From NCBI GenBank assembly GCA_017992055.1, contig JAGOPK010000002.1, positions 558,001 through 622,000 of the forward strand: DNA of 64,000 nt, in the 5' to 3' direction. Position numbers and translations under genes: made by a program. This stretch comes from Burkholderiaceae bacterium. GTDB lineage: Bacteria; Pseudomonadota; Gammaproteobacteria; Burkholderiales; Burkholderiaceae_C. How positions within the stretch are numbered: the first letter of the stretch is position 1; each line of letters starts with the position of its first letter. Below the pieces are notes generated by a model. The model was given only the letters and a program-made list of their open reading frames with translations, was not told the DNA's origin and ran no database searches. This document shows positions 43,454 through 62,939 of the stretch, piece after piece.

Positions 43454-43467
43454 GCTCATCTCCCCGT

Positions 43468-43950: not shown

Positions 43951-44066
43951 GCGGTGTCTCCTCCAACGCTGGACGCCGCGCATGGTCGCGCGCCGGCCCG
44001 GCGGCCTGCGCCGGGACAAACCCGGCTGGCCCGGCGCGCAACGTCGCCGGTTGCGACAACCGGCGC

Positions 44067-45053: not shown

Positions 45054-46310
45054 ATGAAAGCCTCTTCCTCCCCGGCCGCGGTGGCCTGGGCCGGCCTGCT
45101 GGCCCTGGCCCTGGCCATGGGCATCGGCCGCTTCGCCTTCACGCCGCTGCTGCCGCTGATGCAGCGCGACGGCCTGATCGACGCGGCCCTGGGCGCCGAG
45201 CTGGCAGCGGCCAACTACGGCGGCTACCTGCTGGGCGCGCTCAGCGCCGCGGCCGTGGCCGCACGCCTGGGCGCCTCCGGCGACAGCGCACGGCGCTCGC
45301 TGCGCCTGGCCGGGCTGGCCCTGCTGGCCGTGGTGCTGCTGACCGCGGCCATGGCGCTGAGCCACGGCGCCTGGACCTGGCGGCTGCTGCGCGCCGGCGC
45401 CGGCGTGGCCAGCGCCTGGGCCCTGGTGGGCACCAGCGGCTGGGCCCTGGGCCGGCTGGCCCAGACCGGCCAGGCCGCGCTGGGTGGCCGGGTGTTTGCC
45501 GGCGTGGGCAGCGGCATCGCGCTGGCCGGCCTGGCGGCCTGGATGGCCGCGGAATGGGCCTCGCCCGGCCTGTGGGCCCTGCTGGCCGCGCTGGGCGCCG
45601 GCCTGGCCCTGGCCATGGCCCTGCTGGTGCAGCGCGCCGGTGCCGCGCCAGCGGCCGTCGCAGCCGCCATGCCCGGCCCGGCCGCCCACCGCCAGCGGCC
45701 CGGCCTGCCCGCTGGCAGCGCCGCCCTGCTGTTCTGCTATGGCGCCTTCGGCTTCGGCTACATCGTGCCGGCCACCTATCTGCCGCTGATGGCCCGGCAG
45801 CTGGTGGACGATCCGCGCTGGTTCGGCCTGGCCTGGCCGCTGTTCGGCCTGGCGGCGGCCCTGTCCACGCTGGCCTCGGCGCGCTGGGCCGCGCACTGGC
45901 CGCGCACGCGGCTGTGGGCGCTGTGCCAGGCGGCGATGGCCCTGGGCGTGGCCCTGCCGCTGGCCAGCCGCTCGGGCCTGGCCATTGCCGCAGCGGCGGT
46001 GCTGGTGGGCGGCAGCTTCATGGTCGCCACCATGGCCGGGCTGCAGCTGGCCCGGGCCTGGCTGCCGGCCGATCCCACGCCGCTGCTGGCGCGGCTGACC
46101 GCGGCCTTTGCGCTGGGCCAGATCGCCGGCCCGCTGGCCGTGCGTGGCCTGGCCGCCCTGCCCGCCCCGCCAACCCTGCCAACCCTGCCGATTGGCCTGG
46201 ATGCCATTGCACTGACCAGCGCCGCCGCGGCCCTGCTGCTGGCCGCCACCGCCGCCTGGCTGTGGCTGGGCCTGAACGATCATCCCCCGGAGACACACCA
46301 TGCCCCATGA
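45054..46310 (+). CDS. YbfB/YjiJ-family MFS transporter
   Basis: A 418-residue, about 12-helix MFS protein. The opening GIGRFAFTPLLPLMQRDGLI and AANYGGYLLGAL are hallmarks of the YbfB/YjiJ family. The substrate is unknown. The gene diverges from a LysR regulator and its end overlaps the next gene by eleven bases, so the transporter and the carboxymuconolactone-decarboxylase-like protein are likely one unit under LysR control. The ATG at 45054 was chosen since upstream codons run through the operator. Confidence 0.86.
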   Translation: MKASSSPAAVAWAGLLALALAMGIGRFAFTPLLPLMQRDGLIDAALGAELAAANYGGYLLGALSAAAVAARLGASGDSARRSLRLAGLALLAVVLLTAAMALSHGAWTWRLLRAGAGVASAWALVGTSGWALGRLAQTGQAALGGRVFAGVGSGIALAGLAAWMAAEWASPGLWALLAALGAGLALAMALLVQRAGAAPAAVAAAMPGPAAHRQRPGLPAGSAALLFCYGAFGFGYIVPATYLPLMARQLVDDPRWFGLAWPLFGLAAALSTLASARWAAHWPRTRLWALCQAAMALGVALPLASRSGLAIAAAAVLVGGSFMVATMAGLQLARAWLPADPTPLLARLTAAFALGQIAGPLAVRGLAALPAPPTLPTLPIGLDAIALTSAAAALLLAATAAWLWLGLNDHPPETHHAP

Positions 46311-46923
46311 CCCCCAGCAACTGATCCAGGGCTTCAACCCCAGCAGCCATCAGGAGCGGCTGCCGCTGCCGCCCGAGGCCGGCTGGAGCGCCGAGCAGCG
46401 CCGCGTGGCCCAGGCGCTGATCGACGGCCCGCGGCGTGGCGTGTTCGGCCCCTTCGTGCCGCTGCTGCAGGCGCCGGCCCTGCTGGAGCGTGTGGGCGCG
46501 CTGGGTGAGCAGCTGCGCTTTGGCGGCAGCCTGCCCGACCGGCTGCGCGAGCTGCTGATCTGCGCCGTGGCCCGCCACACCGGCAACCAGTTCGAATGGC
46601 AGCTGCATGCGGCACTCGCCCGCCAGGCCGGCGTGGCCGATGCGGTGATTGCCGCGCTGCGCGATGGCGCTCGCCCCGATGCGGCGCGCGACGGACTGGC
46701 CGACGACGAGGCACTGGCGCTGGATGCGGCGCAAGAGCTGATGCACCAGCATGGCCTGGCCGATGCCACCTGGGCGCGCCTGCAGCAGGCCCTGGGCGCA
46801 CCGGCGGCGGTGGAACTGGCCACGCTGGTGGGTTATTTCACGATGGTCTGCTGGGTCATGAACCTGGCGCGCACGCCGGCCCGGCCATCCGACGAAGCGG
46901 CATTGCCGGGCCTGCCCGGCTGA
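46300..46923 (+). CDS. Carboxymuconolactone decarboxylase-family (AhpD-like) protein
   Basis: A 207-residue all-helical protein of the CMD/AhpD fold. The pattern LPDRLRELLICAVARHTGNQFEW near residue 85 carries the conserved histidine, but the CxxC pair of AhpD peroxidases is absent (C is followed by AVARH). Decarboxylase or hydratase activity on a small carboxylic acid is possible. It starts inside the end of the transporter gene. Its neighbour on the other side ends the phosphonate operon, convergent, with 12 bases between. Confidence 0.83.
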   Translation: MPHDPQQLIQGFNPSSHQERLPLPPEAGWSAEQRRVAQALIDGPRRGVFGPFVPLLQAPALLERVGALGEQLRFGGSLPDRLRELLICAVARHTGNQFEWQLHAALARQAGVADAVIAALRDGARPDAARDGLADDEALALDAAQELMHQHGLADATWARLQQALGAPAAVELATLVGYFTMVCWVMNLARTPARPSDEAALPGLPG

Positions 46924-46935
46924 CCACTCCCCGGT

Positions 46936-48108
46936 TCACCAGCCGGCCAGCACCTCTTCGGCCAGCGCAAAGCCGGTGCTGGCACCGGTGCCGCTGGTGA
47001 CCAGCACCACGCGCAGCGCATCGCCGGGTTGCAGCACCAGCGCATCCTCGCTGTGGCCCACCGGATAGTGGCCGATCCAGCGCTCGACCACGGTGGTGGC
47101 CGCCGGCTCGCCCAGGTCGAGCAGGGCCCGCAGCTCGCGCAGGATCAGGCCATCCACCGCCTCGCTGGCCGGCGCGGCATCGGCGGCGAACAGGCCACGC
47201 TCTTCAAATGCGCCGAAGGGCGCGGCCGCGTCGTCGGCGTGGTGGGAATCGCCGACCACCCAGCTGCCATCGGCGCTTTGCACCACGATCACATGCACGC
47301 CATGGGCCAGGCAGTCGCCGGCCTCCCGCTCCAGCGCCTGGCGCAGCGCCGCGGCGGCCGGCTGGGCGGCAAAGCCGCCATAGCGCACCAGGCTCAGATC
47401 GCCCAGCACCGGCGCCGGCAGCACGGCGCCGGCCGGCGGGCGCAGGCGCAGCATCTGCAGCCGCGTCAGGCCCAGGCCATGGGCATCGAGCCAGGGCGCG
47501 GCCACGCCACCCAGCGCGGCCCCGGTACACAGCACCACCCGCTCGGCCTGCAGCCATCGGCGGGCGGTGCGCACGGCGGGCGGCTCGACGGCCAGCACCT
47601 CCTCGCCCCAGAAGAAGGCCACGCCATGGGCCTGCTGCAGCCAGGCGGCCAGGCGCGGCAGCGCGCTGCGCGACTCGACGCGCAGCTCGTGTGGCGAGCA
47701 CAGCACGGCCTGGGTATCGGCGGCCAGCACCGGCGCCTGCCGGCGTGCGTCGGCGCCGGACAGCAGCGTGCAGCCCTGGCCCTGGGCACTGGCGGCAAAC
47801 TGCTCCAGCACCGCCACCGCGGCCGGCCGCCGCGCGCTGATCCAGGCGCCCTGCTGCAGCACGGCGATGCCGGCGGCCGGCGCCAGCTCGGCCCAGACCT
47901 CGCGCGAGCGCCGTGCCCGCGGCCAGGCCTGGGCGCCCTGGCCGCTGACGGTGACAAAGCCGAAGTTGCGCACCGAGGCGCCGACGCAGCGCGCATCGCG
48001 CTCGACCACCGCCACGCGCCAGCCGCGGCGCACGCCGGCCAGCGCATGGGCCAGGCCGACGATGCCGGCGCCAACCACCAGCAGGTCGAACGGGCCCTCG
48101 GCGCTCAC
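46936..48108 (-). CDS. FAD-dependent amine oxidoreductase of phosphonate clusters (TIGR03364-like)
   Basis: A 390-residue DAO-fold flavoprotein. VVGAGIVGLAHALAGVRRGW at the start binds FAD; GASVRNFGFVT and the closing VTSGTGASTGFALAEEVL fit the TIGR03364 family often found next to phnW. Published work on recurrent FAD enzymes of such clusters (called PbfC and PbfD) reports oxidation of AEP and N-methyl-AEP toward phosphonoacetaldehyde; I cannot tell which type this is. It would feed PhnY independently of PhnW. The start is GTG at 48108 within a four-base overlap, and the gene is the last of the minus-strand operon. Confidence 0.82.
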   Translation of the reverse strand: MSAEGPFDLLVVGAGIVGLAHALAGVRRGWRVAVVERDARCVGASVRNFGFVTVSGQGAQAWPRARRSREVWAELAPAAGIAVLQQGAWISARRPAAVAVLEQFAASAQGQGCTLLSGADARRQAPVLAADTQAVLCSPHELRVESRSALPRLAAWLQQAHGVAFFWGEEVLAVEPPAVRTARRWLQAERVVLCTGAALGGVAAPWLDAHGLGLTRLQMLRLRPPAGAVLPAPVLGDLSLVRYGGFAAQPAAAALRQALEREAGDCLAHGVHVIVVQSADGSWVVGDSHHADDAAAPFGAFEERGLFAADAAPASEAVDGLILRELRALLDLGEPAATTVVERWIGHYPVGHSEDALVLQPGDALRVVLVTSGTGASTGFALAEEVLAGW

Positions 48109-48821
48109 GCCCCGGCCCCATGCAGGCCCAGCACCGGCCAGGCACGGGCCTGGGCCTCGGCGTGCAATCGGGCGTCGGGATCAACCACCACCGGCAGGCC
48201 CACGGCACACAGCAGCGGCAGGTCGTTGATCGAGTCGCTGTAGAAGCTGGCGCCGGCCAGGGCGGCTTCCACCGCCGCCTCGTCCAGGCCCCAACCCGAG
48301 CCGAGCGCAGCATCGGCCTGCGCCAGCCAGGCGCGCAGGCGCAGCGGCTTGCCGTCGCGCATGTTCGGCAGGCCGGCATTGCGGCCGGTGTAGCAGCCGT
48401 CCACGCACTCCAGCTCGGTGGCGATCAGGTCGGCAAAGCCCAGGGCCTGGGCCGTGGGCTCGGTGATCAGGCGGTGGGTGGCGGTGGTCATCACCAGGCG
48501 GTGGCCGGCGCGGCGGTGGCGCTCGACCAGGGCGCGCGCGGACTCGGGGATGCGCGGCAGCACCTCCTCGACCAGGAAGCGCTGGCGCCAGGGCTGCCAG
48601 TGCGCCGGGCCATGGCCGGCCAGCAGGCCGGCATAGAAGCCGCAGAACTCGGCCACGCCGACCGCGCCGCTGCGGTAGCCGGCATCCATTTGCGCATTGC
48701 GCTGGCGCTGGCTCTCGGGCAGCAGGCCGTGGCGGATCAGGAACTCGCACCACAGCACATCGCTGTCGCCGGCCAGCAGCGTGTGGTCGAGGTCGAACAG
48801 GGCCAGCGGTGCAGGGCTCAT
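48105..48821 (-). CDS. HAD-IB family phosphatase
   Basis: A 238-residue haloacid-dehalogenase-type phosphatase of subclass IB, the group of phosphoserine and phosphoethanolamine/phosphocholine phosphatases. Motif I is FDLDHTLLAGDS (nucleophile Asp10, acid Asp12), motif II is in VMTTATHR, motif IV in YSDSINDLPLL. It sits directly after eutC with an ATGA overlap. In that place release of ethanolamine from phosphoethanolamine is an attractive role, but phosphoserine or another ester cannot be excluded from sequence. Confidence 0.85.
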   Translation of the reverse strand: MSPAPLALFDLDHTLLAGDSDVLWCEFLIRHGLLPESQRQRNAQMDAGYRSGAVGVAEFCGFYAGLLAGHGPAHWQPWRQRFLVEEVLPRIPESARALVERHRRAGHRLVMTTATHRLITEPTAQALGFADLIATELECVDGCYTGRNAGLPNMRDGKPLRLRAWLAQADAALGSGWGLDEAAVEAALAGASFYSDSINDLPLLCAVGLPVVVDPDARLHAEAQARAWPVLGLHGAGA

Positions 48822-49612
48822 CGCGCCAGCAGCTCCGTCTCGCTGTCGTCCTTCAGTGCGATGCCGGTGACGCGGCGGCGCAGCGCCTCGCGCAGCAGCC
48901 AGGCCAGGCGGCGCGCGGCCAGGTCGTAGGCCAGACCGCCGGGGCGGATGTTGCTGATGCAGTTGCGCTCGGCATCGCTGCGGCCCACGCAAGGGCTGAA
49001 GGTCAGGTAGGCGCCCAGGCTGTCGGGCGAGCTCAGGCCCGGGCGCTCGCCGATCAGCATCAGCGCGGCGCGTGCGCCCAGCAGCGCCCCCACCTCGTCG
49101 GCCAGGGCCACGCGGGCCTGGGTGGCGATGACCAGCGGCGCCAGCGTCGGTGCCGGGCCCGGGCTGCCGTCGAACACCGCACGCAGCGCCTGCAGCAGCG
49201 GCCGCACATGGCGCTGCACGGCCACGGCCGACAGGCCATCGCCGGCCACCACCACCAGATCGGGCGGCGGTGAGGACGGCACAGGCGCCGCGGCCTGCAG
49301 CATGGCCACGCTGTCATCGTCCAGGCGGCGGCCCCAGTCGGGCCGGCGCAGATAGGCGTCGCGCGTGGTCGCGCGGCTGGCCACGGCCAGCGTGGCCCAG
49401 CCGTCCTGTTGCAGTTCGGCGGCCAGGGCGTCGCCATCCAGCGGCACATGCACCGCATCGCGGGCCTGGGCATGGGCGGCGGCAAAGCGCAGCAGCTCGT
49501 GCGTGGGCAGGCTGGTGCCGGCGCGGCCGAGCGCGATGCGCGCCGGCGTGTGGCGGCGCAGTTCGGCCCAGGGGTCGGGCGGCGGATCGACGCCCACCAG
49601 ATCGTTGCTCAT
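48818..49612 (-). CDS. eutC: Ethanolamine ammonia-lyase, small subunit
   Basis: Forms the adenosylcobalamin-binding site with EutB; together they turn ethanolamine into acetaldehyde and ammonia. The 264-residue protein shows the family stretches LVVVAGDGLSAVAVQRHV near residue 120 and RPGLSSPDSLGAYLTFSP followed by GRSDAERNCISNIRPGGL near residue 200. It overlaps eutB by four bases and the HAD gene by four. There is no shell, eutA reactivase or aldehyde dehydrogenase of the classical eut operon here. Confidence 0.95.
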   Translation of the reverse strand: MSNDLVGVDPPPDPWAELRRHTPARIALGRAGTSLPTHELLRFAAAHAQARDAVHVPLDGDALAAELQQDGWATLAVASRATTRDAYLRRPDWGRRLDDDSVAMLQAAAPVPSSPPPDLVVVAGDGLSAVAVQRHVRPLLQALRAVFDGSPGPAPTLAPLVIATQARVALADEVGALLGARAALMLIGERPGLSSPDSLGAYLTFSPCVGRSDAERNCISNIRPGGLAYDLAARRLAWLLREALRRRVTGIALKDDSETELLAR

Positions 49613-51009
49613 GCACCCGCTCCATCGGCGGCGGCGGACAGGGCCAGCGCCAGCGGCGGCCGCGCCGCGGCCGGCAGCAGCCCGCCCTGCGCATCCGTCA
49701 GGCCCTGGCGCTGCAGCCAGGCCTCGAACTCGGGAGCGCGCTTCAGGCCCAGCAGCTGGCGCACGAACAGCGCGTCGTGGAACGAGGTGCTCTGGTAGTT
49801 CAGCATCACATCATCCGCGCCCGGCACGCCCATCATGAAGTTCAGCCCGCTGGCGGCCAGCAGCACCAGCAGGTTGTCCATGTCGTCGGAATCGGCCTCC
49901 GCATGGTTGGTGTAGCAGATGTCGCAGCCCATCGGCAGGCCCAGCAGCTTGCCGCAGAAATGGTCTTCCAGGCCGGCGCGCAGGATCTGCTTGCCGTCGT
50001 ACAGGTACTCGGGGCCGATGAAGCCGACCACGGTGTTGACCAGCAGCGGCCGGTAGCGCCGCGCCGCGCCATACACCCGCGCCTCGATCGTCTGCTGGTC
50101 CACGCCATGGTGGGCATGGGCCGACAGCGCACTGCCCTGGCCGGTCTCGAAATACATCAGGTTGTCGCCCAACGTGCCGCGCTTCAGCGCCAGCGCCGCG
50201 GCATGGGCTTCATCCAGCAGGGCCAGGCTGACACCGAAGCTCTTGTTCGCCGCTTCGGTGCCGGCAATCGATTGGAACACCAGGTCCACCGGCGCGCCCT
50301 GCTCGATGGCCTGCAGCGTATTGGTCACATGGGTCAGCACGCAGCTTTGCGTGGGCACCTGGTGGGTCTGGATCAGACCGTCGAGCTGCTTGAGCAGGCC
50401 CACCAAGGCCGGCACCGAATCCGCCGCCGGGTTGATGCCGATCACCGCATCGCCGGCGCCGTACATCAGGCCGTCCAGGATGCTGGCCAGGATGCCGGCC
50501 GGGCTGTCGGACGGGTGGTTGGGCTGCAGGCGCACGGCCAGGTGGCCGGGCAGGCCCAGGGTGTTGCGAAAGCGCGTGATCACGCGGCAGCGGCTGGCCA
50601 CCAGCATCAGGTCCTGGTTGCGCATCAGCTTGCTGACGGCGGCCACCATCTCGGGCATCAGGCCCGGCGCCAGCGCGGCCAGGGTCTCGGGCGTGGCGGC
50701 GTCGGACAGCAGCCAGTCGCGGAAAGCGCCCACCGTCAGGTGGGCCACCGGTTGAAAGGCCGCGGCATCGTGGCCGTCGATGATCAGGCGTGTGACCTCG
50801 TCGGCCTCGTAGGGCACGACCGCCTCGTTCAGAAAGCGCTGCAGCGGCACATCGGCCAGGGCCATGCGCGCGGCCACGCGCTGCTGGGCGCTGTGGGCCG
50901 CCACGCCGGCCAGTTCGTCGCCCGAGCGCGCCGGCGTGGCCTTGGCCAGCAGGTCGCGCAGGTCGGCGAAGGCGAAGGTTTCGCTGCCCAGCGTGGCGCG
51001 GTAGGCCAT
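49609..51009 (-). CDS. eutB: Ethanolamine ammonia-lyase, large subunit
   Basis: Catalytic subunit of the B12-dependent lyase. The 466-residue protein keeps the residues known to hold ethanolamine in the E. coli enzyme, almost at the same numbers: Arg160 and Gln162 in VRLQPNHPSD, Asn193 in VIGINP, and Glu288 in MYFETGQGS (287 in E. coli). The aspartate of GCDICYTNHAEAD is also kept. So a true ethanolamine lyase is expected, not one changed to a phosphonate substrate. Placement ten bases after phnW, inside an AEP operon, is unusual. Confidence 0.95.
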   Translation of the reverse strand: MAYRATLGSETFAFADLRDLLAKATPARSGDELAGVAAHSAQQRVAARMALADVPLQRFLNEAVVPYEADEVTRLIIDGHDAAAFQPVAHLTVGAFRDWLLSDAATPETLAALAPGLMPEMVAAVSKLMRNQDLMLVASRCRVITRFRNTLGLPGHLAVRLQPNHPSDSPAGILASILDGLMYGAGDAVIGINPAADSVPALVGLLKQLDGLIQTHQVPTQSCVLTHVTNTLQAIEQGAPVDLVFQSIAGTEAANKSFGVSLALLDEAHAAALALKRGTLGDNLMYFETGQGSALSAHAHHGVDQQTIEARVYGAARRYRPLLVNTVVGFIGPEYLYDGKQILRAGLEDHFCGKLLGLPMGCDICYTNHAEADSDDMDNLLVLLAASGLNFMMGVPGADDVMLNYQSTSFHDALFVRQLLGLKRAPEFEAWLQRQGLTDAQGGLLPAAARPPLALALSAAADGAGA

Positions 51010-51019
51010 GGCCCGGCTT

Positions 51020-52132
51020 TCAGCGCGGCTGGGTGGGAATGCCCATCTCGCGCAGCGTCTCGGCCACGGCGTGGACGGCTTGCTCCATCTCCAGCCGCGA
51101 GATCGCGCCGATGCAACCGACGCGGAAGGTCTCCACCGTGGTCAGCTTGCCGGGATAGAGCATGAAGCCGCGCTGCTTGGCCGCGGCATAGAAGCGCTTG
51201 AAGTCGTAGGCCGGGTGCTCGGGCGCATGGAAGGTGACGATGATCGGCGCCTGGTGCTCGGGCTTCAGGAAGGGCTTCAGGCCGATGGCCTGCATGCCGT
51301 CGATCAGCGTGCGGCAGTTGTCCTCGTAGCGCGCCAGGCGGGCGGCCTGGCCGCCTTCCTCGACGAACTGCGTGATGGCCTCGGCCAGCGCCACCACCAC
51401 ATGCGTGGGTGGGGTGAAGCGCCACTGGCCGGTCTTCTCCATGTAGCTGTGCTGGTCGTGCAGGTCCATCGCCAGGCTCTGGCTGTTTCCGGCGCAGCCG
51501 TCCAGGATGGCCTTGCGGATGAAGACGAAGCCCATGCCCGGCACGCCCTCCAGGCACTTGCCGCTGGCGGCGATCAGCGCATCGAAGCGCAGCTCGCGCG
51601 CATCGATGGGCAGGGCCCCCAGGCTGGACATGGCATCGACGATCAGGCCCTTGCCATGGCGCTCGCACACCGCGCCCACGGCATTCAGCGGGTTCAGCAC
51701 GCCGGCACCGGTCTCGCAATGGATCATCACCACATGGGTGATGCCGGGGTCCGCGCGCAGTTGTGCGTCCACGGCCTCGGCACACACCGGCGCATCCTCG
51801 GCAAAGCCCAGCACGCTGCAGCGCCGGCCCATCATCTGCGTGAGCCTGGCGGCACGCTTGCAGTAGGCGCCGTTGTCCAGCACCAGCACATGGCCGTCGC
51901 GCGGCACCACGGTGGCCACGGCCGCCTCGACGCTGAAGGTGCCGCTGCCCTGCAGCGGCACCACCACATGGCTGTGCTGGCCATGCACGATGTCCAGCAA
52001 ACGGCTGCGCACGCCGGCGGTGACAGCATTGAAGTCGGCGTCCCACGAGCCCCAGTCGTGCAGCATGGCCAGCTTGGTGCGCAGCGTGGTGGTCAGCGGT
52101 CCGGGGGTCAGCAGGATGCGGTCGCGGTCCAT
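51020..52132 (-). CDS. phnW: 2-Aminoethylphosphonate--pyruvate transaminase
   Basis: Moves the amino group of AEP to pyruvate, giving phosphonoacetaldehyde and alanine. The 370-residue class V PLP enzyme starts [16 protein letters not shown] and has Asp166 ([10 protein letters not shown]) under the cofactor and the Schiff-base Lys192 ([15 protein letters not shown]). AAGGAG stands six bases before the ATG. It follows the ABC transporter genes by 17 bases and precedes eutB by ten. Its product is the substrate of PhnY, encoded in the divergent operon. Confidence 0.96.
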
Positions 52133-52149
52133 CGCGGTCTCCTTGGGGT

Positions 52150-53853
52150 TCAGGCCTTCCAGCCTTGGGTGCGGCGGTCCACCCACCAGGCCAGCAGGCC
52201 GAACAGCGCCATCGCCAGCGCCGAGGCGGCGGTGATCAGCACCGCCATCGCGGCGGCGGGGCCGATCTCGCCGGCTTCGTCGAGGTTCAGGATGGCGATG
52301 GCCGCGACCTTGGTTTCGGGCGTGTAGAGGAACACCACGGCCGAGATCGTGGTCATGGCGTTGATGAAAAAATAGCGCGCGATGTCCACCAGGGCCGGCG
52401 TGCAGATCGGCAGCGTGACACGCCGGAAGGTGACCCAGAACGGCACCTTCAGCGAAGCCGACACGGCCTCGAACTCGGCGTCCAGTGCCTTCAGGGCGGT
52501 CACCGCCGTCAGGTGGCCGGTGGTGTAGAAATGGGCGATGGTGCACAGCGTCAGCAGCGCCATCGTGTGGTACAGCCCGTTCAGCGGATTGCCCGGCGCA
52601 TTGAAGAAGAAGATGTAGCCCAGGCCCAGCACCAGGCCGGGCACGGCCATCGGCAGCATGGCCAGCAGGCGCACGGCGCTGCGCAGCGGGCCCGCGCCAT
52701 CGGTCTTTTCCAGCAGGTAGGCGCCTGCAAACACCGCGGCCGTGCCGAACACGGCCGTGCCGGCGGCCATGCTCAGGCTGTTGACGAAGGCCGCGCCCAC
52801 CTCGGCATCCACCAGGCCCATCGCATAGTGGTTCAGCGTGGGCGCCAGGTTGTAGGGCCAGAAGCTGGCGAAGGATGCAAACACGGCCATGCCCATCATC
52901 GCCAGCACCAGGGCCGCGATCAGCGCGCAGTACAGCGTGGCCAGCGCATCGCGCCAGGGCTTGCGCGCCGGGCGGTAAGGCACGGCGCGGGCGGTGAGCA
53001 AGGCCGTCTGGCGGCCGGCCACCCAGCGGTCGACCGCAAAGGTCAGCACCGCCGGCGCCAGCAGCAGCAGGGCCACCACCGCGCCGCGCTGGAAGTCCTG
53101 CTGGCCGATGACCAGCTTGAAGACATCGGTGGCCAGCATGTTGAAGTTGCCGCCGATGACCTTGGGGATGCCGAAGTCGGTGACCACCAGGGTGAAGCTG
53201 ACCAGGGCGGCCGAGATCAGGCCGTACTTGGCGCCCGGCAATGTGATGGTGAAGAAGCGCCGCCAGGTGCTGGTGCCCATGGCCGCGGCGGCCTCGTACA
53301 GCCGGCCGTCGGCGGTGTTCAGCGCGGTGACCAGGATCATCAGCGCATGCGGAAACACCGCAAAGCACTCGGCCACCACGATGCCCGGCGCGCCGTAGAT
53401 GGACGCTATGCCCAGGCCCTGCATCCAGGCCTTGAGCACGCCCTGGTTGCCAAACCAGTAGATCAGCGAGATCGCCGACAGCAGCGACGGCGCCAGCAGC
53501 GGCAGCAGGGTGATGCCGCGCCACAGCGGCTTGGCCGGCAGGCGCGTGCGCCGCAGCGCATAGGCAAAGCCGAAGGCCAGCGGCACGGTGATGACGGTGA
53601 CCAGGGCCGACACCCAGACGCTGTTGGCCAGCGAATCCAGCAGCGCCGGCGTTTGCGCATAGGCAATGAAGTTGGCCAGGCCGACCCAGTGGCCCTGGGC
53701 GTCCTGCAGGGCCTGGCCCAGGATGGCCAGCAACGGCGCCGCCAGGAACACCAGCAGGGCCAGCAGCACCGCGGCCAGGGCCGCATGGGCGGCGTACTGG
53801 GTGGGATCGGTGCGCAGGCGCAGATCGGGCGCCACCCGCAGTCCGATGCTCAT
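52150..53853 (-). CDS. 2-Aminoethylphosphonate ABC transporter, fused two-domain permease
   Basis: A 567-residue inner membrane protein with about 12 helices and two binding-protein-dependent permease domains (about residues 60-270 and 330-560). Each has an EAA loop for the ATPase: [22 protein letters not shown] in the first and [21 protein letters not shown] in the second. It corresponds to the fused PhnU-type AEP permease of Burkholderiales, so no separate second permease gene is needed. The ATG at 53853 is preferred over an upstream frame that overlaps the ATPase gene. Confidence 0.92.
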
Positions 53854-53885
53854 GTCGGCCCCTCGTCCGCCGGGTACGACGGCCG

Positions 53886-53900
53886 ATCCCCCAAGGGGAT
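53886..53900. repeat. Intercistronic GC hairpin (REP-like stretch)
   Basis: In the 88-base gap between the ATPase and permease genes, ATCCCC and GGGGAT pair across three bases (53886-53900). The rest of the gap is a GC-rich run of a kind I associate with repeated intergenic elements in this order. It is the only sizeable gap in an otherwise overlapping operon, so it could tune the ratio of ATPase to permease. Confidence 0.4.
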
Positions 53901-53941
53901 GGCGGTCCGGCTTGGGAGCGGCCCGGCGCTCGTCCCGCCCC

Positions 53942-55033
53942 TCATGCAAACACCCTCAGCCGCTCGGGCAGCAGCTTCAGCGGCAGGCGCGAGCCGATCT
54001 GCAGCCGCTGCTCGGCCAGGAAGTTCAGCGACAGCACCACGTCCAGCCGCTGGTCGGCCAGGGCCTCGCCGCCCACGGTGACCAGGCAGTACGAGCCCAG
54101 GAACTCGATGCGCTCGATGGCGGCCTCGAAGACATTGGCGTCGCCCTCGGCGATGGGCCGGGCCAGCACGTCCTCGGGGCGCAGGTAGACGGTGACCTGC
54201 TCGCCGGCCGCGCCATGGCCGGCCAGACCGTTGCCAACGAAGGGCGTGGCGCCGATGCGCAGCCGGCCATCGGCCTGGCGCTGGGCCTGCACCGCATTGA
54301 TGCGGCCGACGAAGTCGGCCACGAAGGGCGTGGCCGGCTCGCGGTAGACCTGCATCGGCGTGCCCACCTGCTCGATCGCGCCCTGGTTCATCACCACGAT
54401 GCGGTCGGCCACCGACAGCGCCTCTTCCTGGTCGTGCGTGACCATGATGGTGGTCACGCCCAGCTGGCGCTGCAGGGCCTTGATCTCCTGGCGCAGGTGC
54501 ACGCGCACGATGGCGTCCAGCGCCGACAGCGGCTCGTCCAGCAGCAGCAGGCCCGGCGAGGTGGCCAGTGCCCGCGCCAGGGCCACGCGCTGCTGCTGGC
54601 CGCCCGACATCTGGGCCGGGAACTTGGCCGCGCTGCCGGGCAGGCCCACCAGGGCCAGCAACTGCTCGACGCGCTGGCGCACCTGCTCGCGCGGCTGGCG
54701 CCGATTCACCAGGCCATAGGCCACGTTGTCGGCCACGCTGAGGTTGGGGAACAGCGCATACGACTGGAACACGATGCCGTAGTCGCGTCGCGCCGGCGGC
54801 AGCGTGCTGATCTCGCGCCCGTCCTGCCACAGCCGGCCGGCGCTCTGCGCCTCCAGCCCGGCGATCACCCGCAGCAGCGTGGTCTTGCCGCAGCCCGAGG
54901 GACCGAGGAAGCAGACGAACTCGCCCTTGGCGATGCTGAGATCAATGCCCTTCAGCGCCTCGAAGCTGCCGTAGTGCTTGCGCACCCCGTCCAGCCTCAG
55001 GTAGGCCGCAGGCGGCGGCACCGGCAGGTTCAC
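53942..55033 (-). CDS. phnT: 2-Aminoethylphosphonate ABC transporter, ATP-binding subunit
   Basis: A 363-residue ATPase with Walker A GPSGCGKTTLLRVIAGLE, the signature MSGGQQQRVALARAL, Walker B LLLLDEPLSALD and the switch histidine in VTHDQEEAL, then a C-terminal TOBE domain (LRPEDVL). The GTG at 55033 was chosen because it forms a GTGA overlap with the phnS stop, as elsewhere in this operon; an ATG twelve codons upstream would overlap phnS by 40 bases. Energises AEP uptake with the fused permease. Confidence 0.92.
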   Translation of the reverse strand: MNLPVPPPAAYLRLDGVRKHYGSFEALKGIDLSIAKGEFVCFLGPSGCGKTTLLRVIAGLEAQSAGRLWQDGREISTLPPARRDYGIVFQSYALFPNLSVADNVAYGLVNRRQPREQVRQRVEQLLALVGLPGSAAKFPAQMSGGQQQRVALARALATSPGLLLLDEPLSALDAIVRVHLRQEIKALQRQLGVTTIMVTHDQEEALSVADRIVVMNQGAIEQVGTPMQVYREPATPFVADFVGRINAVQAQRQADGRLRIGATPFVGNGLAGHGAAGEQVTVYLRPEDVLARPIAEGDANVFEAAIERIEFLGSYCLVTVGGEALADQRLDVVLSLNFLAEQRLQIGSRLPLKLLPERLRVFA

Positions 55034-56082
55034 CGCTTTTCCGACTTGGCGCTGTAGCGCTTGTTCCACTCGGCCAGCACGCGCTCGCGGTTCTCGGCGG
55101 CGACGTTGAAGTCCAGCTTCACCAGGCGCGCCTCATAGTCCTTGGGCACGTTGGCCAGCGGCGCGGCCACGCCGGGCTGGGCGGTGATGGCGAAGTTCTT
55201 GCCGTACAGCAGCATCGCGTCCTTGCTGCTGGCCCAGTCGGCCAGCTTCTTGGCCGCGTCCAGCTTCTTCGTGCCCTTGTGGATGGCAAAGGCCTCCAGG
55301 TCCCAGCCCAGGCCTTCCTTCGGGAACACCAGGTCGATGGGCGCGCCCTTGGCCTTGTTGCTGTTGGCGCGGTACTCGAAGCTGATGCCGACCACGTACT
55401 CGCCGCTGGCGGCCATGTTGCAGGGCTTGCTGCCGCTGTGCGTGTACTGGGCGATGTTCTCGTGCAGGCCGTCCATGTACTTCCAGCCGCCGCCCTTGCC
55501 GTTGTCGTCGCCCCACAGCGCCAGCCAGGCCGTGACGTCGAAGTAGCCGGTGCCCGAACTGGCCGGGTTGGGCATCACGATCTGGCCCTTGTAGGCGGGC
55601 TTGAGCAGGTCCTTCCAGGTCTCGGGCTTGGGGATGCCCTTCTTCTGCGCCTCCACGGTGTTGAAGCACAGGGTGGCGCCCCACACGTCCATGCCGAACC
55701 AGGCCGGCGGATTTTTCTTGTCGCGGTACTGCGACATGATGGCATCGATGTTCAGCGGCTTGTACGGCTCGAGCATGCCGTTCTTGTCCAGCAGGGCCAG
55801 GCTGGACGCGGCCACGCCCATCACCGCATCGGCCTGCGGATTGGCCTTCTCGGCCAGCAGCTTGGCGGTGATGACGCCGGTGGAATCACGCACCCACTTG
55901 ATTTCGATGTCGGGGTGGACCTTGTTGAAGCCTTCCTGATAGGCCTTGAGCTGGTCGGTCTCGAGTGCGGTGTAGACCAGCAGCTGGGCCTTTTGCGCGG
56001 CGGCCGGGCCGGCGGCCAGGGCCAGCAGCGCCGCAGCGCAGACAAGGGTGGAAACGGTGAACGGGCGGCGCGGCAGCGTCAT
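55030..56082 (-). CDS. phnS: 2-Aminoethylphosphonate-binding periplasmic protein
   Basis: The 350-residue binding protein of the AEP importer. A signal peptide of about 30 residues (MTLPRRPFTVSTLVCAAALL, cleavage after PAAAQ or nearby) is followed by an iron/AEP-type class of extracellular solute-binding fold, with VYTALETDQLKAYQEGFNK at the mature start and NPASSGTGYFDVTAWLAL in the middle. AGGAGA is six bases before the ATG at 56082. It is the first gene of the minus-strand operon and faces phnR across a 199-base gap that holds the palindromic operator. Confidence 0.92.
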   Translation of the reverse strand: MTLPRRPFTVSTLVCAAALLALAAGPAAAQKAQLLVYTALETDQLKAYQEGFNKVHPDIEIKWVRDSTGVITAKLLAEKANPQADAVMGVAASSLALLDKNGMLEPYKPLNIDAIMSQYRDKKNPPAWFGMDVWGATLCFNTVEAQKKGIPKPETWKDLLKPAYKGQIVMPNPASSGTGYFDVTAWLALWGDDNGKGGGWKYMDGLHENIAQYTHSGSKPCNMAASGEYVVGISFEYRANSNKAKGAPIDLVFPKEGLGWDLEAFAIHKGTKKLDAAKKLADWASSKDAMLLYGKNFAITAQPGVAAPLANVPKDYEARLVKLDFNVAAENRERVLAEWNKRYSAKSEKR

Positions 56083-56220
56083 GGTTTTCTCCTGGCTGGT
56101 TCCCGCTTTTGGGTGGGGGAACGGACGTTGGGACACAAACCGCTGAGCATGGGCCGCCGATCGTGACGGCACGATGACCGGCTGCGGGCTGGGCTTCATC
56201 TTCTGCGGCTCCGTATCAGT

Positions 56221-56254
56221 TTGTCAACGGTTTTTGGCAGATTGTTGACAATCT
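56221..56254. promoter_or_regulatory. Paired palindromes, probable PhnR operator between the two phn operons
   Basis: AGATTGT-TG-ACAATCT at 56239-56254 is a perfect 16-base palindrome of the TTGT...ACAA type bound by GntR/FadR-class regulators. TTGTCAAC at 56221-56228 and GTTGACAA at 56244-56251 also pair, giving a second inverted repeat. TTGACA at 56245-56250, with TCCAAT 17 bases on, could be the phnR promoter, so binding would block it. The minus-strand TTGACA at 56227-56222 may serve phnS, but I see no good -10 for it. Confidence 0.65.
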
Positions 56255-56281
56255 ACGATCTGGCGCGTCCAATCGATCTCC

Positions 56282-58325
<2,044 letters not shown>

Positions 58326-58338
58326 GCGGAGGCTGACG

Positions 58339-59772
58339 ATGGAACCCCGCCATGAGGGCCTGCGCATCGCCGGCGAGACCGTGGGCGCCGGCCGGCCCGA
58401 GCACATCGCCGTGCGCCATCCCTACAGCGGCCAGCTCGTGGGCACGGTGCCCAAGGCCACGCTGGCCGAGGTGCGGCGTGCCTACGACATCGCGCGCGGC
58501 TACAAGGCCAGGCTGTCGCGCTTCGAGCGCAGCGCCATCCTCAACCGCGCCGCCGACGCGGTGCGCACGCGGCACGACGAGATCGCCACGCTGATCACCG
58601 CCGAATCGGGCCTGTGCCTGAAGGACAGCCTGTACGAGACCGGCCGCGTGGCCGACGTGCTGATGTTCGGCGCCATCGAGGTGCTGAAGGACGACGGCCA
58701 GACCTTCAGCTGCGACATCACGCCGCATGGCCGCAAGCGCCGCGTCTACACCCAGCGCGACCCGCTGCTGGGCGTGATCACCGCCATCACGCCGTTCAAC
58801 CACCCGATGAACCAGGTGGCGCACAAGGTCGTGCCCAGCATCGCCACCAACAACCGCATGGTGCTCAAGCCCAGCGAGAAGGTGCCGCTATCGGCCCTGC
58901 TGTTTGCCGACCTCCTGTATGCCGCCGGCCTGCCACCCGAGATGCTGAGCGTGCTCACCGGCGACCCGCGCGAGATTGCCGACGAGCTGCTGACCCACCC
59001 GGCGGTGGACCTGATCACCTTCACCGGCGGCGTGGCCATCGGCAAGCACATCGCGGCCCGCGCCGGCTACCGGCGCATGGTGCTGGAGCTGGGCGGCAAC
59101 GACCCCATCATCGTGATGGACGATGCCGACCTCGACGAAGCCAGCACGCTGGCGGTCAGCGGCAGCTACAAGAACTCGGGCCAGCGCTGCACCGCGGTCA
59201 AGCGCATGCTGGTGCATGAGAAGGTGGCGGCGGCCTTCACCGATGCGGTGGTCGAGAAGACCCGGGCCTGGAAATACGGCGATCCCTTCGATGCCGGCAA
59301 TGACATGGGCACGGTCATCGACGAGGCTGCGGCGCGGCTGTTCGAGCAGCGCGTGGACCAGGCCATCGCCCAGGGCGCGCGCCTGCTCACCGGCCACCGG
59401 CGCGAAGGCGCGCTGTACGCGCCCACGGTGATCGACCGCGTGCGCCCCGAGATGACCTTGGTGCACGAAGAGACCTTCGGCCCGGTGTCGCCGATCATCA
59501 CTTTCAGCTCGGTGGACGATGCCATCGCCATCGTCAACGGCACGGCCTACGGCCTGTCGTCGTCGCTGTGCACGCAGCGGCTGGATGTCATCACCCGCTT
59601 CGTCGACGAGTTGCACGTGGGCACGGTGAACGTGCGCGAGGTGCCCGGCTACCGCCTGGAGCTGACACCCTTTGGCGGTATCAAGGATTCCGGCCTGGGC
59701 TACAAGGAGGGCGTGCAGGAAGCGATGAAGAGCTTCTGCAACACCAAGACCTACTCTCTGCCGTGGAACTGA
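58339..59772 (+). CDS. phnY: Phosphonoacetaldehyde dehydrogenase
   Basis: Oxidises phosphonoacetaldehyde to phosphonoacetate with NAD. The 477-residue aldehyde dehydrogenase has the catalytic Cys284 in GQRCTAVKRM, the glutamate in LELGGNDPII and the nucleotide stretch FTGGVAIGKHI. It must not be confused with the unrelated iron oxygenase also named PhnY. It links PhnW (minus operon) to PhnA. With no acetaldehyde dehydrogenase beside eutBC, a side activity on acetaldehyde is imaginable but unsupported. Confidence 0.95.
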   Translation: MEPRHEGLRIAGETVGAGRPEHIAVRHPYSGQLVGTVPKATLAEVRRAYDIARGYKARLSRFERSAILNRAADAVRTRHDEIATLITAESGLCLKDSLYETGRVADVLMFGAIEVLKDDGQTFSCDITPHGRKRRVYTQRDPLLGVITAITPFNHPMNQVAHKVVPSIATNNRMVLKPSEKVPLSALLFADLLYAAGLPPEMLSVLTGDPREIADELLTHPAVDLITFTGGVAIGKHIAARAGYRRMVLELGGNDPIIVMDDADLDEASTLAVSGSYKNSGQRCTAVKRMLVHEKVAAAFTDAVVEKTRAWKYGDPFDAGNDMGTVIDEAAARLFEQRVDQAIAQGARLLTGHRREGALYAPTVIDRVRPEMTLVHEETFGPVSPIITFSSVDDAIAIVNGTAYGLSSSLCTQRLDVITRFVDELHVGTVNVREVPGYRLELTPFGGIKDSGLGYKEGVQEAMKSFCNTKTYSLPWN

Positions 59773-59797
59773 CGCTGTCCGGCCACCGAGGCCCGCC

Positions 59798-61519
59798 TTG
59801 ATCCACCTGCTCAACCTGCTCGCGGCGATTGCGCTGCTGGTCTGGGGCACCTACCAGGTGCGCACCGGCGTGCTGCGCGTGGCCGGCGAGAACCTGCGCC
59901 ATGTGCTGGCGCGCAGCATGGGCCACCGCGGCTCGGCTCTGCTGGCCGGCCTGGGCGTGACCAGCCTGGTGCAGAGCAGCACCGCCACCGGCCTGATCGT
60001 CGCCAGCTTCGTCGGCCAGCGCCTGGTGCCCACGGCCGCGGCGCTGGCGGTGATGCTGGGTGCCGATGTTGGCTCGGCGCTGATGGCGGTGGTGTTCTCG
60101 TTCGACCTGTCCTGGCTGTCGCCGCTGCTGATCGTGGTCGGCGTGGCGCTGTTCATCGCCGGCCAGAGCGGGCCTGGCCTGGGCGGACGCATCGGCCGCG
60201 TGCTGATCGGCCTGGGGTTGATCACGCTGGCGCTGCAGCTGATCGTCGCCGCCACCCGGCCGCTGACCGAAAGCCCGGCCGTGCGCGCCCTGCTGGTGGC
60301 CCTGCCCAACGAGGTGCTGCTGGACATCGTGGTCGGCGCCGCGCTGACCGTGGCCGCCTATTCCAGCCTGGCCATCGTGCTGCTGACGGCCGCGCTGGCC
60401 TCGCAGGGCCTGCTGCCGGCCGGCGTGGCCCTGGGCCTGGTGCTGGGCGCCAACCTGGGCAGCGGCCTGCTGGCCATCATCGCCACCAGCCGCGACAGCC
60501 CGGCCACGCGGCGGCTGCCGCTGGGCAATCTGCTGTTCAAGCTGATCGGCATTGCCGCGGCCATGCCGCTGCTGGGCTCGGCCCATGTGCTGCTGCAGGA
60601 CCAGGCCTGGCTGCCGACGGTGCACGAGCAGGTGGTGGCCTTCCACCTCGGCTTCAACCTGGTGCTGGCGGCGGTGTTCATCGGCTTCACCGCACCCATC
60701 GCCCGCCTGGTGGAGCGCTGGCTGCCCGAGGCCAAGGCCGATGCCGCCCAGCAGCGCACCAGCCACCTGGACCCGGTGGCCCTGGCCACGCCCAGCCTGG
60801 CCATCAGCTGCGCCGCCCGCGAGGCCCTGCACCAGGCCGACATCGTCGAGGCCATGCTGCGCGGCATGCTTTCGGTGCTGCGCGACAACGACCTGGAGCT
60901 GTCCGAGCGCCTGCGCCAGCGCGACGACGAGGTGGACCGGCTGTACAGCGCGATCAAGTTCTACCTGACGCAGATCTCGCGCGAGGCGCTGAGCGAGCGC
61001 GAGGGCCGGCGCTGGACCGACATCGTCAGCTTCACCATCAACATGGAGCAGATCGGCGACGGCATCGAGCGTGTACTGATCGACATCGAGGACAAGAAGA
61101 TCCGGCCGCAGCGGCGCTTCTCGGATGCCGGCATGGCCGAGATCTGCCATCTGCACGAGCGCCTGTTGGCCAATCTGCGCCTGGGCATGAGCGTCTTCCT
61201 CGACGGCCATGCCCGCGACGCGCGGCGGCTGCTGGAGGAGAAGGCGCGCTTTCGCGACCTGGAGCATGCCTATGCCGCCAACCACATCGCCCGCCTGCAG
61301 GACAACACCGCGCAGAGCATCGAGACCAGCTCGCTGCACCTGGACCTGCTGAGCGAGCTCAAGCGCATCAACTCGCACATCTGCTCCATCGCCTACCCCA
61401 TCCTCGAAAGCCGCGGCGCCCTGGCCGCGACGCGGCTGCAGGCCGGCAGCAACGAACCCACCGACTGGGCCGAGCTGGCCGAGCCGGCCCCTCCCTCGCC
61501 CCCCCGCAAGCCCCGATGA
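59798..61519 (+). CDS. Na/Pi-cotransporter family protein with PhoU-like domain
   Basis: A 573-residue protein with 8-9 membrane helices and the two repeated family motifs (SLVQSSTATGLIVASFVG near residue 55; a second copy near 180-225, ending VLGANLGSG). A cytoplasmic PhoU-like helical region follows from about residue 330. It probably moves phosphate, perhaps exporting excess released by PhnA. The start is TTG at 59798, chosen because MIHLLNLLAAIALLVWGT is the usual family opening; no ATG lies nearby. It overlaps the next gene by four bases. Confidence 0.87.
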   Translation: MIHLLNLLAAIALLVWGTYQVRTGVLRVAGENLRHVLARSMGHRGSALLAGLGVTSLVQSSTATGLIVASFVGQRLVPTAAALAVMLGADVGSALMAVVFSFDLSWLSPLLIVVGVALFIAGQSGPGLGGRIGRVLIGLGLITLALQLIVAATRPLTESPAVRALLVALPNEVLLDIVVGAALTVAAYSSLAIVLLTAALASQGLLPAGVALGLVLGANLGSGLLAIIATSRDSPATRRLPLGNLLFKLIGIAAAMPLLGSAHVLLQDQAWLPTVHEQVVAFHLGFNLVLAAVFIGFTAPIARLVERWLPEAKADAAQQRTSHLDPVALATPSLAISCAAREALHQADIVEAMLRGMLSVLRDNDLELSERLRQRDDEVDRLYSAIKFYLTQISREALSEREGRRWTDIVSFTINMEQIGDGIERVLIDIEDKKIRPQRRFSDAGMAEICHLHERLLANLRLGMSVFLDGHARDARRLLEEKARFRDLEHAYAANHIARLQDNTAQSIETSSLHLDLLSELKRINSHICSIAYPILESRGALAATRLQAGSNEPTDWAELAEPAPPSPPRKPR

Positions 61520-62058
61520 TCACCGTCGACGAGATCGAGATCCTGTTCCTCACCCGCGGCCACGAGCAGTACGCCGGCGAGCCCGTGACCCAGCTGCAGC
61601 ATGCGCTGCAGTCGGCGCAGCGGGCCGAGCAGGAGGGCGCCGACGACGAGCTGGTCACCGCCGCCCTGCTGCACGACCTGGGCCATCTGGTGCAGGACCT
61701 GGGCGAATCGCCCACCACCCGCGGCATCGACGACCTGCACCAGTACATCGCCCTGCCCTTTCTGCGCGGCCGCTTTTCCGACCGCGTGCTGGGTGCCATC
61801 CAGGGCCATGTGGATGCCAAGCGCTACCTCTGCGCCACGCGGCCCGGCTACCACGCCGCGCTGTCGGCCGATTCGCAGCGCAGCCTGCTGCTGCAGGGCG
61901 GTGTGTTCGACGCCGACCAGGCCGCCGCCTTCATCGCCCGGCCCGGTGCCGAAGAAGCCGTGCGCCTGCGCCTGTGGGACGACCTGGCCAAGGCGGCCGA
62001 CGCCCACACGCCGCCGCTGGCGCATTACCTGGACCGCGCGCGACGCTGCGCGCGGTGA
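61516..62058 (+). CDS. phnZ: PhnZ/TmpB-like HD-domain diiron oxygenase
   Basis: The 180-residue HD protein belongs to the phosphonate-operon HDIG family (TIGR03276) that contains PhnZ, which cleaves (R)-1-hydroxy-2-aminoethylphosphonate with O2 to glycine and phosphate. As I recall the PhnZ sequence, every key residue has a partner here: the gate pair Tyr19/Glu22 (QYAGEPVTQL), iron ligands His29, His53, Asp54, His75, His98 and Asp155, and the substrate residues His57 and Lys102 (GHVDAKRYL). So an oxygenase, not a nucleotide phosphohydrolase, is expected. The usual hydroxylase partner is not in the window. Confidence 0.82.
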   Translation: MITVDEIEILFLTRGHEQYAGEPVTQLQHALQSAQRAEQEGADDELVTAALLHDLGHLVQDLGESPTTRGIDDLHQYIALPFLRGRFSDRVLGAIQGHVDAKRYLCATRPGYHAALSADSQRSLLLQGGVFDADQAAAFIARPGAEEAVRLRLWDDLAKAADAHTPPLAHYLDRARRCAR

Positions 62059-62939
62059 GCGGCCTGAGCTGGCCCATCGTCGCCGCCGTGCTCTGCGGCG
62101 CGCTGCTGCATGCCGGCTGGAACGCCCTGGTCAAGTCCGGCGGCGACAAGGCGCTGGACACGGCCCTGGTGCACTTTCTCGGCGCCGTCGTGGCCCTGCC
62201 GCTGCTGCTGTGGGCCGGCCTGCCGCAGGCCGGCAGCCTGCCCTTCATCGCCGCCTCGCTGGCCATCCACATCGGCTATTACGTGGCCCTGGCCGGCGCC
62301 TACCAGCATGGCGAGCTGGGCCTGACCTATCCCATCATGCGCGGCTTCGCGCCGCTGCTGGTGGCGCTGGGCAGCGCCAGCCTGATCGGCGAGTCGCCCA
62401 GCGCCGCGGCCTGGCTGGGCATCGTCGGCATCACGCTGGGCGTGGCCCTGGTCGGCCTGGCCCATCCGGGCGAGGCCCTGCACCATGGCAAGGCCCTGGC
62501 CTATGCCTTCAGCAACGCGGCGATCATCGCCGTCTACACCGTGGTCGACGGCCTGGGCGTGCGCCACGAGGTGGCCGCGGGCGGCAGCGCGCTGCGCTAT
62601 GTGCTGCTGCTGTTCGTGCTCGACGGCCTGCCCTATCCGCTGCTGCTGTTGTGGCACCGCGGCCTGCTGCGCACCCAGGGCCGGCCGCAGCTGTGGGCCT
62701 ATGCGCGCCAGCGCTGGAAGCTGGCGGCGCTGGGCGGCAGCGCCTCCATCGGCTCGTATGCCATCGCGCTGTGGGCCATGACGCGCGCGCCGGTGGCCAG
62801 CGTGGCCGCGCTGCGCGAGACCTCGGTGCTGTTCGCCACGCTGCTGGGCACCTGGCTGCTGAAAGAGGCCTTCGGCTGGCAGCGTGCCATCGGCACCGTG
62901 GTCATCGTGGCCGGCGTGATGGCGCTGCGCCTGGGCTGA
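62055..62939 (+). CDS. Phosphonate-associated EamA/DMT-family membrane protein
   Basis: A 294-residue protein with ten hydrophobic segments in two EamA-like halves. CGALLHAGWNALVKSGGDK at the start and YPIMRGFAPLLVALGSA in the first half fit the phosphonate-utilisation-associated membrane protein family (TIGR03340). It may export a by-product such as alanine, or import a phosphonate. The start is GTG at 62055 inside a GTGA overlap with phnZ. It is the last gene of the plus-strand operon, and its last 38 bases overlap the convergent exonuclease gene. Confidence 0.82.
   Translation: MSGLSWPIVAAVLCGALLHAGWNALVKSGGDKALDTALVHFLGAVVALPLLLWAGLPQAGSLPFIAASLAIHIGYYVALAGAYQHGELGLTYPIMRGFAPLLVALGSASLIGESPSAAAWLGIVGITLGVALVGLAHPGEALHHGKALAYAFSNAAIIAVYTVVDGLGVRHEVAAGGSALRYVLLLFVLDGLPYPLLLLWHRGLLRTQGRPQLWAYARQRWKLAALGGSASIGSYAIALWAMTRAPVASVAALRETSVLFATLLGTWLLKEAFGWQRAIGTVVIVAGVMALRLG

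Follow-up and report, generated by a model that had tools for sequence, protein, structure and literature searches.

Gene clusters in which PhnW, PhnY and PhnA degrade 2-aminoethylphosphonate (AEP), known as PhnWAY clusters, have already been described with phnZ homologues (24 of 75 phnWAY clusters; PMC8154272) and with flavin adenine dinucleotide (FAD) oxidases (PMC10590968). Ethanolamine is handled in other described systems by short, non-microcompartment eutBC operons with an eat permease (PMC6529630) or, in Streptomyces and Phaeobacter, by ligation to glutamate, two oxidations and hydrolysis (PMC6529630, PMC10132767), the hydrolysis products proposed for Streptomyces being glycine and glutamate (PMC6529630). 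Here, we describe a 14-gene island that combines AEP genes with eutBC and a HAD phosphatase, located at positions 46936-62939 of a 64,000-nucleotide stretch of a Burkholderiaceae bacterium (assembly GCA_017992055.1, contig JAGOPK010000002.1, positions 558,001 to 622,000), hereafter the window. The presence of eutBC in the island, and of another route for ethanolamine at the equivalent place in its sister loci, suggests uptake of AEP and phosphoethanolamine as phosphorus and nitrogen sources. Our preferred reading, to which we give a probability of about 0.58, is that the island serves to recover phosphorus and nitrogen from 2-aminoethyl phosphorus compounds, whether of the C-P or the C-O-P kind.

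The island comprises two divergent operons, with the order phnS2-phnT2-phnU2-phnW-eutB-eutC-HAD-FAD on the minus strand and phnR-phnA-phnY-NaPi-HD oxygenase-EamA on the plus strand. All genes named in a first-pass annotation of the window were found where it had placed them. The operons, described there as overlapping, are separated by about 200 bp (56083-56281), and 4-base overlaps, said to occur at most joints, were present at half of them (6 of 12: phnS2/phnT2, eutB/eutC, eutC/HAD, HAD/FAD, NaPi/HD oxygenase and HD oxygenase/EamA). Family scores are given below as bits over the curated NCBIfam cut-off, some open reading frames having been scored with an over-long start. Twelve of the 14 genes exceeded the cut-off of a model fitting their label; the exceptions were the HAD gene, which passed HAD-IB models only, and the EamA gene. 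The window genome is 99% complete (40 contigs, 5.9 Mb).

Both ethanolamine ammonia-lyase subunits, encoded on the minus strand directly after phnW, exceeded their cut-offs: eutB (49609..51009; PF06751, NF011649; EutB 716/554) and eutC (48818..49612; PF05985, NF003971; EutC 314/230). A search of the genome itself showed this EutB to be its sole copy. Alignment to E. coli 3abo, counted by eye, indicated that the active-site residues are kept; we take these to be R160, Q162, N193, E287, V326, F329, D362, M392, L402 and Y404.

The linkage of EutB to AEP importers was assessed in 399 Burkholderiaceae genomes, with matches accepted at E 1e-100. A PhnU2-type permease was found in 122 genomes (116 over the family cut-off) and EutB in 119. 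Both were present in 49 genomes and lay within 10 kb of each other in 11 of these, compared with about 0.2 expected if placement were random in genomes of 5 Mb, kinship being uncorrected. The co-location is not due to chance. Nor is eutBC beside AEP genes a one-strain oddity: it recurs in several genera and in four arrangements, so that the pairing with AEP genes pointed out by the first-pass annotation extends well beyond the strain in which it was seen. The first arrangement, phnW-eutB-eutC-HAD, occurs in the window, in genomes G011 and G171, and also in a locus of a named metagenome-assembled genome (L017). In the second, found in three genomes of genus g75 (L162, L163, L164), phnR-(HD oxygenase)-EamA-eutB-eutC faces phnS2T2U2-phnW-phnX; these are phnX-using AEP loci without the window-type HAD. 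The third, in two genomes (g14), has the order importer-FAD-DHHA1 protein-eutB-eutC. The remaining three genomes combine eutBC with a divergent importer (about 39% identical, its permease scoring below the family cut-off), a DeoR regulator and a phosphatase of the inositol-monophosphatase type. Gene content was mapped for 132 of 133 importer loci (L285 had no anchor; L166 and L170, which lack the importer, were not mapped). A simple gene caller did not find the anchor in L201, L219, L237, L251, L273, L278 (few or no calls) and L288, and counts were made by tblastn. L159 (G171) and L015 agree in length and gene order and were taken as one contig.

The origin of the linked copies was examined on an EutB tree (FastTree, midpoint root), in which four loci were entered twice (L130, L140, L142 and L144 repeat L156, L161, L158 and L160). 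The window type, the g75 type and G119 fell on separate branches, and the g14 type grouped with G325 and G347. Because the window EutB clustered with unlinked copies of related Burkholderiales (e.g., L016, L170), including G296 of its own genus, a resident eutBC was probably relocated into the AEP locus. Among the best 80 of at least 591 eutB relatives in named genomes, which as best matches were not used as a frequency, two (L015 and L017) had a phn cluster.

A functional clue came from three genomes of the same genus (G143, G227 and G356), whose islands otherwise resemble that of the window. Their slot after phnW holds a glutamine-synthetase-like ligase, an Fe-type alcohol dehydrogenase and an aldehyde dehydrogenase in place of eutBC, with a C26 gamma-glutamyl hydrolase as well in G143 and G227. 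The HAD gene follows this module in G143 and G227, and the contig of G356 ends earlier. An AstE/AspA-type hydrolase gene was seen after the HAD gene in G011 and in G143/G227 (L155:6077-7033, L168:15955-16920). With ligase, alcohol dehydrogenase, aldehyde dehydrogenase and hydrolase occurring together in the sister loci, we infer from family membership and gene set that the module serves gamma-glutamyl-ethanolamine catabolism. This assignment as an ethanolamine route is supported by the permeases carried in two ligase modules (L187, L227), which scored 352 and 360 bits against a cut-off of 382 for the ethanolamine permease model.

The ligase was present in cis in 40 of the 132 mapped loci; 38 of these 40 also have phnW, and the ligase was accompanied by the Fe-type alcohol dehydrogenase in 36, the aldehyde dehydrogenase in 32 and the C26 hydrolase in 32 (some loci were clipped by contig or fetch ends). 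The two routes were mutually exclusive in this set: not one of the 40 genomes whose importer locus includes the ligase had EutB, versus 49 of the 82 other importer genomes. On the importer-permease tree, G011, with eutBC, and G356, with the ligase, were sisters (0.92) inside a clade that otherwise consisted of the window and G171 (support 1.0); therefore, at least one exchange took place inside this small clade. The exchange was seen again at the divergent importer, where G325 has the phosphatase, importer, DeoR gene and eutBC, and G027 has the same three genes with a full ligase module. This replacement by a second ethanolamine route strengthens the (phospho)ethanolamine part of the first-pass proposal, and the swapping of two unrelated ethanolamine pathways at a single operon position among members of one genus is an instructive case of module replacement. 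Outside the family, a ligase homologue near the importer was found in two of 35 genomes (G410 and G459; 33-41% identity). In G459, only an FAD gene accompanies it besides the importer. In G410, which is from outside the class, the ligase homologue and genes for an aldehyde and an Fe-type alcohol dehydrogenase adjoin PhnU2, NaPi and EamA genes (L293:2355-10781; 35-42% identity).

The HAD-IB phosphatase gene (48105..48821, minus strand; PF12710, TIGR01490; start set from the overlap with eutC) would, judging from its context and fold, encode a phosphoethanolamine phosphatase. The protein passes the HAD-IB model TIGR01490 (114/98) and fails the histidinol-phosphatase model NF052360 (212/280). A second HAD protein of the same genome, 42% identical to it, passes the latter (289/280), and the possibility that the island gene is the genome's histidinol phosphatase was rejected because the copy over the cut-off lies elsewhere. 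An identity as the phosphonatase PhnX was also rejected, since matches were limited to HAD-IB and histidinol-phosphatase models. The AlphaFold model (pLDDT, its confidence score, 94.8; 30-sequence alignment) was nearest in fold to 3fvv, a functionally uncharacterised Bordetella protein, and then to phosphoserine phosphatases; the P. aeruginosa phosphorylcholine phosphatase 4as2 ranked 42nd. The window-type HAD was present in 32 of the 132 loci, three of which have eutBC in cis, 21 the ligase in cis and seven EutB elsewhere in the genome, so that an ethanolamine route in cis (24) or EutB elsewhere (7) accounts for 31 of the 32. It stands after the aldehyde dehydrogenase gene in 16 of the 23 assessable ligase loci.

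A phosphatase of the inositol-monophosphatase family, unrelated to the HAD protein (histidinol phosphatase TIGR02067, 309/275), was found in five of the seven divergent-importer loci, in three with eutBC and in G027 with the full ligase module. All seven of these genomes have EutB or an in-locus ligase, in G094 only as a 35% ligase homologue. Both phosphatase types thus score with histidinol-phosphatase families, whose substrates are 2-amino-alcohol phosphates; histidinol phosphate, phosphoserine and phosphoethanolamine are all phosphate esters of 2-amino alcohols. Our main reason for proposing phosphoethanolamine as the substrate is that two unrelated phosphatases of the same expected chemistry each adjoin such an importer together with either ethanolamine route. 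The seven loci with the divergent PhnSTU-like importer (L156, L157, L158, L283, L284, L286, L287), five of which contain eutBC or the ligase, make this transporter a candidate for a dedicated phosphoethanolamine importer. In each of the two g14 loci (L160:10113-11057, and likewise L161), the FAD gene and eutB flank a gene for a 314-aa protein, which reached 25.8/25.9 bits for DHHA1, just below the cut-off, and is possibly a third kind of phosphoesterase.

Entry into the cell would be by the importer encoded at the head of the minus-strand operon by phnS2 (binding protein; 55030..56082; TIGR03261 499/393), phnT2 (ATPase; 53942..55033; TIGR03265 507/458) and phnU2 (permease; 52150..53853; TIGR03262 796/593). 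The nearest PDB sequences to PhnS2 were 4r72 and 8x1a, deposited as iron-binding components, followed by the pyridoxal-5-phosphate binder 6wce. We take 4r72-4r75 to bind sugar phosphates. Phosphoethanolamine differs from AEP by one oxygen, and no ethanolamine permease over the cut-off was found in the window genome (best match 39.5 of 382 bits). In the preferred reading, the importer would thus admit both compounds. AEP would be converted to acetate and phosphate by PhnW, PhnY and PhnA, as is known for these families; the HAD phosphatase would free phosphate from phosphoethanolamine, and EutBC would split the resulting ethanolamine into ammonia and acetaldehyde. The broader claim that many Burkholderiaceae PhnSTU2 "AEP importers" also carry intact phosphoethanolamine, and that their loci are general 2-aminoethyl-phosphorus islands in which a HAD-IB or inositol-monophosphatase-type phosphatase feeds an interchangeable EutBC or gamma-glutamyl module, is a tentative one that we hold at somewhat less than even odds.

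Control of both operons could be exerted from a single site. The sole divergent intergenic region contains the palindrome AGATTGTTGACAATCT (56239..56254, no strand assigned), proposed as the PhnR operator from its conservation and genome-wide matches. Its core was present in all 22 extractable intergenic regions of the 24 considered. In a wider test, covering the 64 of 132 loci with a divergent pair as called, the loci being related, the core was found in all 33 loci that have eutBC or the ligase, in 15 of the 31 that have neither and in five of 1280 shuffled regions. The 5.9-Mb genome holds a single exact copy, other matches carrying three mismatches. The adjacent phnR (56282..57118, plus strand; TIGR03338, phnR_burk, 286/271.5; start set from the alignment of relatives) encodes a GntR/FCD-family regulator, unlike the LysR-type PhnR described elsewhere (PMC9311074). 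Bound to the palindrome as its candidate operator, PhnR would govern both operons and their induction. The idea of one integrated salvage system, advanced in the first-pass annotation, is partly supported: recurrence and the one conserved palindrome in the single divergent region speak for it.

The C-P branch is represented by phnW (AEP transaminase; 51020..52132, minus strand; NF010006 568/296), phnA (phosphonoacetate hydrolase; 57111..58325, plus strand; TIGR02335 602/408) and phnY (phosphonoacetaldehyde dehydrogenase; 58339..59772, plus strand; TIGR03250 854/636), all over curated cut-offs in one locus. The FAD amine oxidoreductase gene (46936..48108, minus strand), also present in G171 and absent from G011 and L017, exceeded the TIGR03364 cut-off within an AEP locus (360/285), as expected of PbfD-like enzymes. 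Enzymes of the PbfD type convert N-methyl-AEP to phosphonoacetaldehyde, and one of them is annotated as TIGR03364 (PMC10590968). By analogy, the window enzyme is predicted to oxidise N-methyl-AEP or AEP and would feed N-methyl-AEP into the PhnW-PhnY-PhnA path; the N-methyl-AEP part of the first-pass proposal stands to the extent that this likeness to published enzymes carries it. The PhnZ/TmpB-type HD oxygenase (Phn-HD; 61516..62058, plus strand; TIGR03276 232/215), related by sequence to 6npa TmpB and 4mlm PhnZ, occurs in 56 of the 132 loci. In an alignment to 4mlm judged by eye, it keeps the six iron ligands. No PhnY* hydroxylase was found among the 14 genes of the island (the rest of the genome was not searched), and the oxygenase may act on some imported 1-hydroxy-aminophosphonate. 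The hydroxy-AEP part of the earlier proposal thus retains its oxygenase, lacks a partner hydroxylase in the island and is weak. The Na/Pi-type transporter with PhoU domains (59798..61519, plus strand; PF02690, PF01895; TIGR00704 236/210) may export surplus phosphate when the substrates serve for nitrogen, by analogy with P. putida, which exports phosphate when grown on AEP as nitrogen source (PMC8316502). The last plus-strand gene encodes an EamA-family membrane protein (62055..62939; PF00892, Pfam EamA 55/28; TIGR03340 223/288, below the cut-off).

Several observations weigh against a phosphoethanolamine branch. G126 has the HAD gene and neither ethanolamine route was found in it, and eight of the 11 eutBC-linked loci (g75, g14 and the divergent-importer loci) lack the window-type HAD; in the g75 loci, no mapped gene carried a phosphatase name. 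The HAD gene is absent after the aldehyde dehydrogenase in seven of the 23 assessable ligase loci, and where no route lies in cis it pairs with EutB weakly (7/8 versus 35/71 without HAD, p = 0.06). Five of the 68 ligase-bearing genomes among the 399 also have EutB (four of g39, and G007, where the match is 48% identical). The AEP-binding protein AepX was very specific among the phosphonates reported (PMC8316502). A phylum-wide search found the importer in 39 of 398 genomes, and in the 35 of these outside Burkholderiaceae PhnU2 had no EutB within 10 kb; EutB itself was present in 20 of the 36 genomes searched. All locus and genome counts ignore phylogeny. Finally, G119, G298 and G358 have an ethanolamine-permease-like gene near eutBC, so in these three genomes the substrate may be free ethanolamine.

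That last point leads to an alternative in which only free ethanolamine is used: EutBC would be co-regulated with the AEP genes since both compounds come from decaying membranes, ethanolamine would enter by diffusion or through an unrecognised carrier such as EamA, and the HAD protein would serve another substrate. Such an arrangement would fit the three g75 genomes, where eutBC directly follows EamA and the window-type HAD is missing, as well as the ethanolamine-permease-like genes near 29 of the best 80 of at least 591 eutB loci and in four of the 40 ligase loci. We consider it unlikely, given that the HAD gene sits between eutC and the FAD gene with 4-base overlaps and comes directly after the ligase module in 16 of 23 cases, and that an unrelated second phosphatase accompanies the divergent importer in five of seven loci. 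The chance is slim that EutBC and the ligase module act on another amine, such as hydroxy-AEP or an amino alcohol derived from it, as the PhnZ-type oxygenase and the distant relationship of the ligase to solved, tested enzymes might hint; the EutB score and its retained ethanolamine-site residues, the ethanolamine-permease-like genes in some modules, and the fact that both exchanging routes, unrelated to each other, are known for ethanolamine (PMC6529630, PMC10132767) all point the other way. EutBC as a hydroxy-AEP lyase was rejected on the kept EutB site and the module exchange. Slimmer still is the chance that a resident eutBC merely landed behind phnW without a functional link. The grouping of the window EutB with unlinked copies (L016, L170) indicates that a move did occur, but the linkage recurs in four arrangements and 11 of 49 genomes, and this, together with in-operon 4-base overlaps and the swap with an equivalent pathway, is hard to square with accident.

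Next to the island, a YbfB-type major facilitator superfamily transporter and a member of the carboxymuconolactone-decarboxylase family are encoded at 45081-46923, in convergent orientation to the FAD gene. Farther from the island (41282-44987, minus strand) are genes for a molybdenum hydroxylase large subunit, a [2Fe-2S] subunit and a PtrR-like LysR regulator.

Among lipid headgroups phosphoethanolamine is a common one, and the annotation given to PhnS2T2U2 genes is that of AEP importers. Were a single importer and regulator to serve both compounds, environmental counts of these genes would exaggerate the use of phosphonates, and hydrolysis of headgroups inside the cell would add a further route between the phosphorus and nitrogen cycles. 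In Phaeobacter, PhoX cleaves the headgroup extracellularly and ethanolamine is imported, and that study states that uptake of the whole headgroup has still to be determined (PMC10132767); if our reading is true, the island names candidate genes for this uptake. We found no description in the open-access PMC literature of AEP genes combined with eutBC, a gamma-glutamyl module or a phosphoethanolamine phosphatase, and neither "phosphoethanolamine" nor "ethanolamine" occurs in a 2023 review of phosphonate degradation (PMC10574752).

Compared with known systems, the window shares a standalone EutB and EutC with the short eutBC-eat operons (PMC6529630), and no shell genes were seen among its neighbours; it differs in that no eat permease over the cut-off occurs in the genome and that eutBC lies inside an AEP operon. 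The sister loci share a ligase, an alcohol dehydrogenase, an aldehyde dehydrogenase and a glutamine-amidotransferase-fold hydrolase with the routes of Streptomyces (GlnA4; PMC6529630) and Phaeobacter (PMC10132767), a likeness drawn by family and not by direct sequence comparison, and differ in their setting within an AEP locus and their Fe-type dehydrogenase. A PF12710 HAD protein beside ethanolamine genes is also predicted in Fusobacteria Eut clusters, where it is 28% identical to the P. aeruginosa phosphoethanolamine/phosphocholine phosphatase (PMC6620236); unlike the window gene, it belongs to a microcompartment cluster and is a predicted phosphate acetyltransferase substitute, phosphonate genes going unmentioned in the available text. 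The closest match is the PhnWAY cluster, with which the window shares PhnW, PhnA, PhnY and the PhnU2 importer, all over their cut-offs. The window adds eutBC and a HAD-IB phosphatase, and its sister species a gamma-glutamyl module, neither addition being mentioned in the available portions of the PhnWAY papers (PMC8154272, PMC10590968). The island is, in this comparison, a variant of the PhnWAY cluster and not a new kind of system.

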